In this document: one piece after another, positions 1,384 to 60,910 of the stretch
How positions within the stretch are numbered: the stretch's first letter is position 1
Layout: each line of letters begins with the position of its first letter
NCBI GenBank assembly: GCA_021736215.1
Contig: JAIPGI010000003.1
Span: forward strand, 1 to 64,000
DNA length: 64,000 nucleotides
Reading direction: 5' to 3'
Source: Candidatus Altimarinota bacterium
GTDB taxonomy: Bacteria; Patescibacteriota; Gracilibacteria; UBA4473
Notes under the pieces: generated by a model
Told to the model about the DNA's origin: nothing
Database searches by the model: none
What the model saw: the letters and a program-made list of their open reading frames with translations, nothing else
Position numbers and translations under genes: made by a program

Positions 1384-1536
1384 GCCTCGTGTATTATCGC
1401 GAGAAATGTATTTTTGGGAAAGAGGGTTTTGAGAAAATAGGTTATTTTTCCATTTGCAAAACCTTTCAATTTCCGCACAATTTAGATGAAATAATTATTG
1501 TTCTATTTATTCATCAACTCATAAACTTTTCTCACA

Positions 1537-7973: not shown

Positions 7974-8054
7974 GAGATCTTTCTTATAAAATATTTTTAA
8001 TTTTTTGCAATATTTTTTTCGGCATTATTTCATATTTTCTTTAGAATAGGGAAG

Positions 8055-8855
8055 ATGAAAATCGCCTCTTGGAACGTGAATGGCATCCGTGCAATTGAAC
8101 GCAAAGGCGAACTGGACAGATTTTTAAAGGCCTATAAGCCCGATATATTGCTCTTGCAGGAGACCAAGGCGAAATCAGACCAACTCTCAGCAGAGCTAAC
8201 AGAACATCCAGAATACGAGCAGTTCTATCATTCCGCTGAGAAGCCAGGATATGCCGGGACAGCGATTTGGATCAAAAAGGAACTATTAATCCCGGGTTCA
8301 AAGAATTCCCAGAACCCGGGATTGGATTTTCAAACAGGAATGCCAAATTGTAACGATGACGAGGGAAGGATTTCCAAAATAGATATCGGAGCGTGGTCTG
8401 TTTTGGGCATATATTTCCCCAATGGAGGGAAGTCGCCTGAAGCATGGAAAGGAAAATTAGAATTCTATGAGCAGTTTTTATCGTATGTAAACATACTTCG
8501 TTCGGAAGGGAAAAAGGTCATTTGGGCAGGAGATGTAAATTGTGCCCATCAGGAAATAGATTTGGCACGACCTCGGGAAAATGATGGGAAAATAGGATTT
8601 CATCCGCGAGAGCGTGCATGGATGAATAAAGTCGTTGACAATGGTTGGGTGGATACTTTCCGAGCTCTCCACGGTGATGAGATAGTATACTCATGGTGGG
8701 ATGTCGTTACGCGATCACGAGAGCGCAATGTGGGCTGGAGAATTGATTATTTTTTTATCGACAAAGCACTTCTTTCTCACGTCAAAAATATCCAATACCT
8801 TACCAGCCAAATGGGATCGGATCACTGTCCCGTGATGATAGAAATTCAGAGTTAA
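8055..8855 (+). CDS. xth: Exodeoxyribonuclease III (AP endonuclease)
   Basis: A DNA repair nuclease cleaving at abasic sites. Active-site residues are visible across 266 residues: N8 (SWNVNGIR), E36 (LLQETK), D160 and N162 (WAGDVNCAH), and D256-H257 (GSDHCPV). Residues about 79-91 are encoded by a palindromic element (8288-8323) inserted in frame in a surface-loop region between the conserved GTA.W and the later core strands. A TAGAAT at 8042-8047 puts the expected transcription start at or next to the ATG. The stop overlaps the convergent 8852 gene. Confidence 0.95.
   Translation: MKIASWNVNGIRAIERKGELDRFLKAYKPDILLLQETKAKSDQLSAELTEHPEYEQFYHSAEKPGYAGTAIWIKKELLIPGSKNSQNPGLDFQTGMPNCNDDEGRISKIDIGAWSVLGIYFPNGGKSPEAWKGKLEFYEQFLSYVNILRSEGKKVIWAGDVNCAHQEIDLARPRENDGKIGFHPRERAWMNKVVDNGWVDTFRALHGDEIVYSWWDVVTRSRERNVGWRIDYFFIDKALLSHVKNIQYLTSQMGSDHCPVMIEIQS
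8288..8323. repeat. Palindromic element family A inside xth
   Basis: A 36-bp element with 12-bp perfect arms (AATCCCGGGTTC and GAACCCGGGATT) around a 12-nt loop. It lies in frame in the exonuclease III gene. A related copy with the same CCCGGGTTC core and a similar loop (GAATTCC versus GAAATTCC) is inside the M24 peptidase gene at 18537-18570. Confidence 0.85.
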
Positions 8856-12797: not shown

Positions 12798-13052
12798 TAT
12801 TAAATGGAATTCCCTTTTCGTTTCTCTTCGCGAAACGTGCAGTACGCTTTTTATAAAAAAGAGAATACCTTCTGTACTCTCATTTTACAAAAAGCTCCCT
12901 TTCGTTTCGAACGCATCTGGCTCTGCCAAAAGGCAGAACGCGACCAGGAGGGGATTTACACAAGAGAGAACAATCTAAAAAAAATAAATTTTTCGAAACT
13001 CTTTTGCTTCTGTTTTGAATCCGAAGATCCAAAATACCCTTAGTGCCTCTAG
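12798..13052. other. Intergenic region 3' of 16S rRNA
   Basis: No gene is seen. On the RNA strand (minus) this is the 16S trailer. A small hairpin CTCTGCC/GGCAGA lies near 12920 and a T-run lies near 12978-12990. No tRNA, 23S or 5S sequence follows the 16S here. Confidence 0.6.
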
Positions 13053-14533
13053 AAAAGGCGATGATCCATCCGCACATTCCCGTACGGATACCTTGTTACG
13101 ACTTAAGCCCAGTCACTGGTTTCACCTTAGGCCACCATTTATTGGCAGACTTCGGGCGCCCCCAGCTCCCATGCCTTGACGGGCGGTGAGTACAAGACCC
13201 AGGAACATATTCAACGTACCATGACTGATATACGTTTACTAGCGATTCCGGCTTCATGAGGTCGAGTTGCAGACCTCAATCCGAACTGAGACAAGTTTTC
13301 TCCGATTGGCTCCCTGTTACCAGATTGCTTCGGTTTGTACTTGCCATTGTATCGTGGGTGTAGCCCCAGACATAAGGGCCATGCTGATTTGACGTCATCC
13401 TCACCTTCCTCCGGTTTATGACCGGCAGTCTCGTGTGAAAATACAACACACGATGAGGGTTGCGCTCGTTCACGGACTTAACCGAACACCTCAAGGCACG
13501 AGCTGACGGCAACCATGCAGCGCCTGTCACTAGTCCAGCCGAACTGACTTCTCTGTTTCCAGAAAATACGACTAGGATGTCAAGTCTGGGTAAGGTTACT
13601 CGCTTATTGACGAATTAAACCCCGCGATCCACCGCTTGTGTGGGTCCCCGTCTATTCCTTTGTGTTTTAATCTTGCGATCGTAGTACACAGGCGGCATGC
13701 TTAACGGGTTACCTTAGGCACTGATTCCAGGTCGAGGGAACCAACACCGAGCATGCATCGTTTACGGCGTGGACTACACGGGTATCTAATCCGTTTCGCT
13801 CCCCACGCTTTCGTCCCTGAGTGTCAGGAATGGGCCAGTATGCTGCCTTCGCTTTTGGTGTTCCTGTGCATATCTACGGATTTTACCCCTACTTGCACAA
13901 TTCCACATACCTCTCCCATCCTCTAGCGAGATAGTTTCCATCACAGCACCGATGTTAAGCACCAGTATTTAATGACAGACTTACCTCACCACCTGCGGAC
14001 GCTTTACGCCCAATAATTCCGGATAACGCTTGCCCCTTACGTATTACCGCGGCTGCTGGCACGTAATTAGCCGGGGCTTATTCCTGAGGTACCGTCAGAT
14101 TTTCGTCCCTCAGAAAAGGTGTTTACACTCCGAAAAGCTTCATCCACCACGCGGTGTCGCTCCGTCAGACTTTCGTCCATTGCGGAAGATTCTCTACTGC
14201 TGCCTCCCGTAGGAGTATGGGCCGTGTCTCAGTCCCATCGCGCCTGGTCATGCTCTCACACCAGGTACCCGTCATCGCCTTGGTAGGCCTTTACCCCACC
14301 AACAAGCTGATAGGCCACAAGCCTCTCCCGTACCGCCTGAGCTTTACTCTTGCGAGACCATCCGGTATTAGCTTCGCTTTCGCGAAGTTATCCCTGAGTA
14401 CGGGGTAAGTTCTTATGTATTACTCGCTCGTCCGCCACTTTCCACCCGAATAAATCCGAGTTTCACGTTCGACTTGCATGTATTAAACGCACCGCCAGCG
14501 TTCATCCTGAGCTAGGATCAAACTCTCTATAAA
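13053..14533 (-). rRNA. rrs: 16S ribosomal RNA
   Basis: Small-subunit rRNA read on the minus strand. Universal sites are present: AGAGTTTGATC (start side, 14516-14526), the CAGCAGCCGCGGTAATACG decoding-site region near 14040, and the GTAACAAGG and h45 region near 13090. The length is about 1481 nt, shorter than the 1542 nt of E. coli. The 3' end reads GGATCATCGCCTTTTCT in place of GGATCACCTCCTTTCT, so the anti-Shine-Dalgarno core is altered. The h45 stem itself is well paired. Ends are placed by analogy with E. coli. The gene is not followed by 23S. Confidence 0.95.
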
Positions 14534-15076: not shown

Positions 15077-15403
15077 CTATTTGAAGGGATAGTTACCCTC
15101 AATTATTGTCACACCAGCAATAGTGAGAGACTTGAGATCCTTTGTCACCCATCCTTTCTCTACAAGACTTTGAACGAGTTCCGGATCTTCCTCCCCAATA
15201 GACATTTCTGGATTTTCATAAATTCTTTTCGCCAAATCAACTTCTGCGTTGGTAGAATTCATCAATACATTTCGCACAGCAGTTTTAAAGTAATGTTGAG
15301 TTCCATCGTATGTATCTTTTTTGTTGAAAATGTTTTTTACTTTCTCAACAATTCCAAGGCTTTGATCTTGATTCAGTCCGGTAGCAGTTTCATTGTTTTT
15401 CAT
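15077..15403 (-). CDS. Hypothetical protein with strong leaderless promoter
   Basis: A 108-residue soluble protein of unknown family, with a charged N-terminus (MKNNETATG) and a C-terminal part resembling a small helical domain. The start at 15403 is set by a perfect promoter, TTGACA (15433-15438), 17 nt, TATAAT (15410-15415), whose start point falls on the ATG itself. Longer readings would begin upstream of the promoter. The strength of the promoter suggests a highly expressed small protein. Confidence 0.75.
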   Translation of the reverse strand: MKNNETATGLNQDQSLGIVEKVKNIFNKKDTYDGTQHYFKTAVRNVLMNSTNAEVDLAKRIYENPEMSIGEEDPELVQSLVEKGWVTKDLKSLTIAGVTIIEGNYPFK

Positions 15404-15409
15404 ATCCCT

Positions 15410-15438
15410 ATTATACATTTTTTTACGCAGAATGTCAA
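15410..15438 (-). promoter_or_regulatory. Consensus promoter, leaderless
   Basis: TTGACA (15433-15438) and TATAAT (15410-15415) with a 17-nt spacer, both perfect matches to the vegetative consensus. Only 6 nt separate the -10 from the ATG of the 15077-15403 gene, so its mRNA should begin at or next to the start codon. Confidence 0.85.
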
Positions 15439-30348: not shown

Positions 30349-30377
30349 TCGACAAAGTGAGAAGAGGATTTTAGAAT
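30349..30377 (+). promoter_or_regulatory. Promoter of VirB2-like gene, leaderless
   Basis: TCGACA (30349-30354), a 17-nt spacer, TAGAAT (30372-30377). The start point falls on or next to the ATG at 30385. It is divergent from the rplP promoter. Confidence 0.7.
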
Positions 30378-30384
30378 AGAGCCA

Positions 30385-30807
30385 ATGAAGAAGATTTATG
30401 CGCTCGTGTTAACCCTTGTGGTTCGCGTTTTCTTTGAAGGAAATGTATTTGCGCAAACAACTCCGAGTCCATCAGATTCTGAATTTGGCGGGGTTATACC
30501 CAAGTCTGGTACGGGGCAAACAGGCGAATTGGGAGAGCGTATCGCCAGTGGGAATGTTTCACTGCAGGATATGTCATTAGTTATAATTTATCTTATTGAT
30601 CTAGTAACGAAGCTTGCTGGAACGGTAGCAGTTGTATTTATTCTTTATGCAGGATTTCAATTGATTTCGAGTGGACTTAATGAAAGCGCTCGAGAAGAGG
30701 CAAAAAATACACTTCAATACGCCGTTATAGGACTAGTGGTTTGTTTGTTGGCTTGGGTCATTGTGAATGTTGTTCAAATGCAATTAACAACAGCAACGGC
30801 AGTATAA
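30385..30807 (+). CDS. TrbC/VirB2-like membrane protein
   Basis: A 140-residue protein with an N-terminal signal-like segment ending FAQ (about residue 24), a short Ser/Pro/Gly linker, and two hydrophobic helices (about 65-95 and 110-130) separated by a short charged loop (NESAREEAKNTLQ). This is the layout of VirB2/TrbC pilins and of the similar small proteins common in CPR genomes. A relative without a signal peptide is encoded at 59612. It stands on the opposite strand inside the S10-spc cluster. A pilus or secretion role is an inference from topology. Confidence 0.65.
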   Translation: MKKIYALVLTLVVRVFFEGNVFAQTTPSPSDSEFGGVIPKSGTGQTGELGERIASGNVSLQDMSLVIIYLIDLVTKLAGTVAVVFILYAGFQLISSGLNESAREEAKNTLQYAVIGLVVCLLAWVIVNVVQMQLTTATAV

Positions 30808-30815
30808 AAAAATTC

Positions 30816-30821
30816 TATAAT
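30816..30821 (+). promoter_or_regulatory. -10 box of the 30830 pseudogene
   Basis: A perfect TATAAT with a start point expected near 30828, about 2 nt before the ATG at 30830. No clear -35. Confidence 0.5.
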
Positions 30822-43671: not shown

Positions 43672-44136
43672 TTATGAGTGTTGAGCGCCAGAAATCTTTG
43701 CTGGGCGCAAAATAATACTTTGAAATTTCCAACCAGGTTCAAGTACTCGTACGACTGTGCCAGGAGTTCCTTCTTCTGCCATAAGAACTTCATGAATTTG
43801 AGGATCAATGATATCTCCCACAGAAGGGACGAGTGTTTCAAGACCTTGTTTTTCGAGCTCAGAAAAAAAGCGTTCTACGGTTTTTTGTATATCTTTGTCT
43901 GCAGAATGCTCTGATCCAAGTTTTAGTTCCAAGAATTTTGGGAGCATGTTTTTCAAAAATTCAGCAATGCCTACTTCGACCCAACTCATTTTATTTTGAG
44001 CTTCGCGTCTTTGAAAATTTTGTAAATCTGCCAAGACTCGCATCCGTGCGCTCTGTGCCTCAGATAATTCATCTTTTGCTTTTATGAGTTCTGCCTCAAG
44101 GGCTTCGATTTTTTTCTCAAGTGGGTTGCTTTTCAT
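43672..44136 (-). CDS. grpE: Nucleotide exchange factor GrpE
   Basis: Exchange factor for DnaK. 154 residues: a long N-terminal coiled coil (LEKKIEALEAELIKAKDELSEAQSARMRVLADLQNFQRREAQN) and a beta domain with INPQIHEVL-like IDPQIHEVLMAEEGTPGTVVRVLEPGWKFQSIILRPAKI. The start at 44136 avoids the hydrophobic, unrelated upstream codons. No dnaK or dnaJ in the window. It is divergent from efp. Confidence 0.94.
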   Translation of the reverse strand: MKSNPLEKKIEALEAELIKAKDELSEAQSARMRVLADLQNFQRREAQNKMSWVEVGIAEFLKNMLPKFLELKLGSEHSADKDIQKTVERFFSELEKQGLETLVPSVGDIIDPQIHEVLMAEEGTPGTVVRVLEPGWKFQSIILRPAKISGAQHS

Positions 44137-60380: not shown

Positions 60381-60764
60381 CTATTCTGATTTTTCCTCGG
60401 TAGTTTCTGTTGCAGGAGTGGATATTTCTTCAGATGGAGCCTGGGGCGCTACAGGGGCTTCTGTTGGGGCAGGTGTTTTTTTTGGTTTTGAACTCCTCTC
60501 TGTTACAAATTTTCCCGCTTCTTTGATACCATGTTTTGTGAGAAGTCGTGCAGCGGTCTCAGACATCTGTGCTCCATGTGAGAGATAATGTTTTACACGA
60601 TCTTCCACAACGACGAGTTCCCCTTTTCCTTTTTCGAAATGAGGATTATAGTATCCAAGCTTCTCAATATGCTTTTTTTGAACAGCTTTAGATTTCTCTG
60701 CTGCCACCAAGTGAAAGAAAGCTTGATTTTTGCGTCCGACACGAACAAATCGAATAATAACCAT
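60381..60764 (-). CDS. rpsP: 30S ribosomal protein S16, extended
   Basis: bS16, 127 residues against about 82. The core, MVIIRFVRVGRKNQAFFHLVAAEKSKAVQKKHIEKLGYYNPHF, is conserved. A Pro/Ala/Glu-rich tail (KKTPAPTEAPVAPQAPSEEI) extends the C-terminus. First gene of the unit ending with comF. The promoter is at 60793-60820. Confidence 0.95.
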   Translation of the reverse strand: MVIIRFVRVGRKNQAFFHLVAAEKSKAVQKKHIEKLGYYNPHFEKGKGELVVVEDRVKHYLSHGAQMSETAARLLTKHGIKEAGKFVTERSSKPKKTPAPTEAPVAPQAPSEEISTPATETTEEKSE

Positions 60765-60881: not shown

Positions 60882-60910
60882 TTGCTCATTGTTCTCTGTT
60901 CATTGATAAT
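60882..60910 (+). promoter_or_regulatory. glmS promoter, leaderless
   Basis: TTGCTC (60882-60887), a 17-nt spacer, GATAAT (60905-60910). The start point near 60917 is about 2 nt before the ATG. The -35 side is formed by GTTCTCTGTTC-type repeat text also seen near 42385. Confidence 0.65.

Follow-up and report, generated by a model that had tools for sequence, protein, structure and literature searches.

Messenger RNAs that begin at, or within a few nucleotides of, their start codon are very probably a main mode of translation initiation in this tiny uncultured bacterium, with Shine-Dalgarno (SD) pairing unused and the constraint on the 16S rRNA tail relaxed. Sigma70-type promoters stand directly before many start codons, SD motifs are not enriched, the anti-SD core of the 16S rRNA is altered, and promoter placement is conserved gene by gene between related species.

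A sequence-only reading of the window, the 64,000-nt stretch of DNA analysed here, had pointed to a consensus promoter whose start point falls on an ATG. The arrangement it described, TTGACA, 17 nt, TATAAT and 6 nt before the ATG, is borne out and lies on the minus strand, which had been left unstated. Both boxes of the minus-strand element (CGCATTGACATTCTGCGTAAAAAAATGTATAATAGGGATATGAAAAAC) are perfect, with TTGACA at 15438-15433, TATAAT at 15415-15410, then AGGGAT and the ATG at 15403, so that the whole spans 15438 down to 15401. A search of the 64 kb for TTGACA-N15..19-TATAAT gave no second copy besides that at 15438-15410. At this gap of 6 nt the A of the ATG, at offset 7, is the predicted start purine, and the mixture model described below assigns the gene a leaderless posterior of 1.00. 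The 108-residue open reading frame (ORF) that begins at this predicted start point (15077-15403, minus strand; coding score 19.8) is probably, though not certainly, a gene. It has no match in Pfam or NCBIfam, and no relative among 19 family genomes or in genome_contigs. As the ORF is an orphan, the promoter is a weak example by itself and the case must rest on the whole genome, where the pattern is strong.

The genome, from a UBA4473-like member of Ca. Gracilibacteria, comprises 1,010,508 bases in 17 contigs, is 93% complete and has 40% GC. From codon statistics alone, with the upstream signal unused, 783 genes were called, and the 487 operon-first genes that start with ATG were fitted with a mixture model in which the boxes were E. 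coli-like and the distance distribution was left free. In 31% of them (bootstrap 26-37%), the gap between the end of a sigma70-type -10 box and the ATG is 6-11 nt, most often 8 nt. Gaps of 18-29 nt account for 21%, those of 12-17 nt for 6%, and those of 0-5 nt for ~0-3%. The crude gene finder overlooks small genes and some genes called first are not truly first, so the leaderless share is underestimated. Divergent genes alone give 43% at gaps of 6-11 nt, and the 134 starts that lack a nearby alternative start codon again give 31%. In contrast, the same gaps are found for 1.9% of intergenic non-start ATGs, 0.1% of ATGs within genes and ~0.1% of shuffled upstream DNA. The raw sequence displays the same feature in operon-first genes, as TA-N3-T boxes reach a maximum 7-8 nt before the ATG (39-41 per position vs. 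~12-15) and TTG has its maximum at the corresponding -35 place. Boxes re-estimated from the data read TTGAC and TANAAT with a spacer of 16-17 nt. The distances are not random but sharply bimodal; the pattern is unchanged on unambiguous starts and missing from control ATGs and several sister lineages. The proposed coexistence of two start modes, leaderless and leadered, is upheld by the two main gap classes.

The position of the transcription start can be predicted from the purine content downstream of the -10 box. This is maximal 7-8 nt past the end of the box in leadered genes, and in the leaderless class a purine stands at the same distance whatever the gap, following the -10 box and not the ATG. 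G occupies -1 in 71% of genes with a gap of 7 nt and in 53% with a gap of 8 nt, and -4 in 64% with a gap of 10 nt. The actual 5′ ends that we infer from these positions would give leaders of 0 nt at gap 6 (as at 15403), 0-2 nt at gaps 7-9 and 3-5 nt at gaps 10-11, while the leadered mode is predicted to have short leaders of ~11-25 nt. The commonest geometry is a gap of 7-8 nt with G at -1, predicting (G)AUG. The earlier claim of leaderless mRNA with its start point on the ATG is supported, with one minor refinement: only a gap of 6 nt reaches the A of the ATG, and the commoner gaps predict very short leaders. Given the purine position, the accurate wording is "leaderless or near-leaderless".

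Each of the other promoters listed for the window is there, and their gaps are 6-10 nt. On the plus strand, nrdR has TATAAT at 97-102 (gap 9 to the ATG at 112), xth has TAGAAT at 8042-8047 (gap 7 to the ATG at 8055; leaderless posterior 0.96), the 30385 gene has TAGAAT at 30372-30377 (gap 7), the 30830 ORF has TATAAT at 30816-30821 (gap 8) and glmS has GATAAT at 60905-60910 (gap 8). The adk box, TAAACT at 1522-1527 (plus strand, gap 9 to the ATG at 1537), is weak, with a leaderless posterior of only 0.27. On the minus strand, the 7973 gene has TATAAG at 7984-7989 (gap 10; posterior 0.96). Protein chemistry independently fixes where glmS and nrdR start: GlmS begins MCGI, set by the catalytic Cys2, and NrdR begins MKCP, the N-terminal Zn ribbon, with a PF22811 match from residue 1. 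GlmS is 66-80% identical to records for Ca. Gracilibacteria, UBA4473 and DOLZORAL124_38_8, and its gap of 8 nt is found in three species, including the relatives at loci L194 and L195. The 30385 gene (30385-30807), which has a leaderless promoter and resembles type IV secretion pilin genes (PF18895), lies within the S10/spc ribosomal gene region and has the same geometry in its orthologue in G012, a genome of the same genus.

Ribosomal and secretion genes had been described as leadered, and this stands as a tendency only. S15, L27, S16 and SecG are leadered, as are purF and guaB among 20 sampled leadered genes; S2, however, has a leaderless posterior of 0.91. A sample of 20 leaderless genes contains, among others, pyrB, priA, fmt, truB, leuS, recG and xth, and no ribosomal protein gene. 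Within the window, grpE (43672-44136, minus strand) exemplifies the leaderless mode with a posterior of 0.98 and rpsP, encoding S16 (60381-60764, minus strand), the leadered mode with a posterior of 1.00.

The mode of individual genes is conserved between species. Orthologues with aligned starts were taken from the relatives G012, G002, G007 and G018, leaving out pairs that lack a clear promoter on one side. Of the pairs, 15 are leaderless in both genomes, 17 are leadered in both and 4 switch (2 + 2; Fisher p 5e-6). The leaderless share (gaps 6-11) was also estimated in 10 genomes of the class, which are few and phylogenetically non-independent. In the window's own family it is 31% in the window's genome (G000), 27% in G002, 33% in G018, 34% in G007 and 13% in G012, the last from only 65 genes (CI 4-22). 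Raw counts had suggested that leaderless promoters are absent from G012, which is partly due to sample size; the EM estimate is the 13% given here and the orthologues agree with G000. Other families differ widely, with 34% in f16 (G212), 7% in f2 (G020), 4% in f3 (G022), and 1% in each of f26 (G286) and f6 (G134). As the shares differ among genomes, the leaderless mode belongs to certain lineages of a class that uses SD little or not at all. The samples from G022 and G134 (loci L154-L163 and L184-L193) contain frames that stay open only when TGA encodes a residue (code 25), which fits the UGA=Gly reassignment known in Absconditabacteria/BD1-5. Genes of G134 were called with code 25 and splitting at masked N runs; the standard code applies in the window's genome.

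SD cores are not enriched upstream of genes in the window's genome (32 seen vs. 41 expected), and none of the 10 sampled genomes of the class displays clear enrichment, with G012 as a possible exception (19 vs. 10.8; loci L109-L116, a small sample in which the leaderless share is also below that of the other family members). Operon-internal genes are depleted of G from -13 to -4 and carry A at -3 in 49% of cases. The 16S rRNA gene lies in the window itself (13054-14533, minus strand; RF00177), and the sequence-only reading had overlooked a matching change in it. The tail reads GGATCATCGCC vs. the expected GGATCACCTCC, with TCGCC in place of CCTCC at the anti-SD core (13057-13061, minus strand), so that CCUCC has become UCGCC in the rRNA. 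SD-like pairing with the altered tail was considered and rejected, as no purine motif is enriched at gaps of 4-11 nt. Loss of IF3 or bS1 as a cause was likewise rejected, as both IF3 and a four-domain bS1 are found in the genome; bS21 gave only a weak match.

Family members carry CGCC or TGCC at this core, and CCTCC is retained solely in genus g3. In all of them, the anti-SD segment forms the 5′ strand of a hairpin with a 5-bp stem (GCCTY...RAGGC), which in the window corresponds to GCCTT-TTCTA-GAGGC (13045-13059, minus strand) and covaries within the family, as GCCA/TGGC in L061, TCCTC/GAGGA in L067 and GCCTT/AAGGC in L060. When the window's short tail is folded as a single strand to minimum energy, a competing pairing with bases of h45 is favoured; the hairpin in the window's own sequence is therefore read from its conservation in relatives. 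It could equally be retained on the mature 16S rRNA, whose 3′ end is here a prediction, or serve as a processing signal. Across the class, a pattern search read the 16S end in 186 of 353 genomes and found CCTCC in place in 73, a few of which possibly lie outside 16S, and the full GGATCACCTCC in 41. Families f5 and f6 read GGACTATCTC. Relatives in the class with an intact or nearly intact anti-SD have leadered promoters and are 1-7% leaderless. However, G002 is leaderless although it retains CCTCC (inside the hairpin), and f6 is leadered despite having no CCTCC. The coupling between anti-SD loss and leaderlessness is therefore loose rather than strict.

An unbiased k-mer scan upstream of ATGs found a further element, TTAAC (also TTAAT), whose end lies 10-11 nt from the ATG. 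TTAAC itself occurs 18 times at gaps of 9-12 nt in the window's genome vs. 2.5 expected; G002, G007, G020, G134 and G286 also have an excess, whereas G212 has none. The element is found in 12 of 101 operon-internal genes (2 expected) and in 22 of 195 first genes without a nearby promoter (7 expected), and is scarce in both promoter classes (leaderless 3/134, leadered 3/94). Examples of TTAAC/TTAAT include the tufA, L11, L12 and rpoA loci. A mis-scored -10 box was rejected on this distribution, the element being rare in both promoter classes and commoner in genes lacking a promoter. Complementarity to the 16S tail was also rejected, as GTTAA occurs only at ~820 and 1042 of the 16S and not near its 3′ end. 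As a guess, TTAAC is a candidate SD-free element for recruiting ribosomes.

The following mechanism would account for these data. In roughly a third of operon-first genes, and in ~40% of those that are clearly divergent, a sigma70-type promoter (TTGAC-N16/17-TANAAT) would set the transcription start 0-2 nt, and at most ~5 nt, before the ATG. The 30S or 70S ribosome would accept the 5′-terminal (G)AUG with initiator tRNA and no SD pairing. The remaining first genes would have short leaders of ~11-25 nt or no recognisable promoter close by, with leadered and operon-internal genes lacking SD and a subset carrying TTAAC 10-11 nt before the ATG. In the likely order of events, class-wide loss of SD use would have relaxed the constraint on the 16S tail, and in this family the CCUCC core would have been replaced and made into a hairpin arm. 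A more specific version is doubtful, having perhaps one chance in a few: that in this Gracilibacteria order the anti-SD is locked in a 3′-terminal 16S hairpin kept on the mature 30S subunit, which would use two SD-free routes, the 5′-terminal (G)AUG and UUAAC ~11 nt before the AUG of leadered and internal genes.

An alternative explanation is that starts are misannotated, with the real start codons downstream of ordinary leaders and the promoter-proximal ATG incidental. Codon-based calling is wrong for some genes, and the start of the orphan at 15403 is uncheckable by homology. However, starts without close alternatives give an undiminished share, active-site chemistry fixes the starts of glmS and nrdR, orthologues align from the N-terminus with identical geometry, and non-start ATGs reach only 2%. 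Gaps of 0-5 nt are also nearly empty, as would be predicted only where the ATG has to be part of the transcript. These observations make misannotation very unlikely. That -10-like boxes arise by chance is less probable still, to the point of being negligible. At 40% GC, TATAAT occurs >30 times in the window, mainly within genes, but the controls refute this reading: neither shuffled DNA nor ATGs that are not starts show the peak, nor do several sister genomes, and the peak is accompanied by a -35 box and a start purine.

It is somewhat less improbable, although still unlikely, that the proximal promoters are real but minor and that the main mRNAs derive from upstream promoters or read-through and have longer leaders. 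Genes are densely packed, only ~30-45% of first genes have such a promoter, and processing or additional distal promoters could lengthen 5′ ends. Conversely, the share is highest in divergent genes (43%), where read-through from a neighbour is impossible, and the promoters are conserved across species despite diverged upstream DNA. This upstream DNA also lacks SD or any other signal, TTAAY being found in 3 of 134 leaderless genes.

The leaderless or near-leaderless arrangement favoured here resembles that of Mycobacterium tuberculosis and Deinococcus deserti (the GeneMarkS-2 leaderless type), with a -10 box few nucleotides from many starts and leaderless and leadered genes coexisting. Mycobacterial leadered genes, by contrast, rely on SD, and their ribosomes retain the anti-SD; here, SD is missing from leadered and internal genes, and the ribosome has lost the anti-SD core. 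Two relatives within or near the window's class are Absconditabacteria SR1 and Ca. Peribacter riflensis. For both, one study already lists loss of CCUCC and scarce SD (PMC10783764), which agrees with the absence of CCUCC and SD enrichment here; in the parts consulted, its CPR members of this category are not linked to leaderless promoters, and neither a 16S-tail hairpin nor a two-mode promoter geometry is described. Bacteroidota such as Flavobacterium johnsoniae, with a Kozak-like A-3, share mRNAs without SD and A-rich sequence before internal starts. However, F. johnsoniae keeps its anti-SD and 87% of its leaders exceed 10 nt, with a mean of 33 nt (PMC6847099), whereas here the anti-SD is not intact and, by promoter geometry only, mRNAs are not mostly leadered. 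Leaderless transcription has been predicted in 21.6% of bacterial species, making up to 40% of transcripts (PMC9581028). A literature search of partial coverage found no paper on leaderless mRNA in CPR or Patescibacteria. Leaderless translation and anti-SD loss are each already known in bacteria; the link between the two in this order, the hairpin and TTAAC appear to be undescribed, and the per-gene conservation of mode is also among the new parts.

Some close relatives among the Gracilibacteria have leaderless promoters and others do not, and their anti-SD may be intact, drifting or replaced, with little or no SD use in the sampled genomes. The class forms a natural series for studying the order of loss of SD use, the anti-SD and leaders, and what takes their place. 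Gene finders that presuppose SD will call wrong starts here, and a changed sensitivity to kasugamycin-type inhibitors is predicted from leaderless translation. Two minor observations concern other features of these genomes. In the family members G003, G005, G011 and G013 (loci L069-L078; in G003 also elsewhere), 16S matches split near model positions 873/874, suggesting intervening sequences, introns or contig breaks. In two families, a CIRCE-like inverted repeat (TTAGCACTC-N9-GAGTGC) lies beside the -10 box of a putative chaperonin gene, on contig C6 of the window's genome (~69548) and in the G020 sample (32884).
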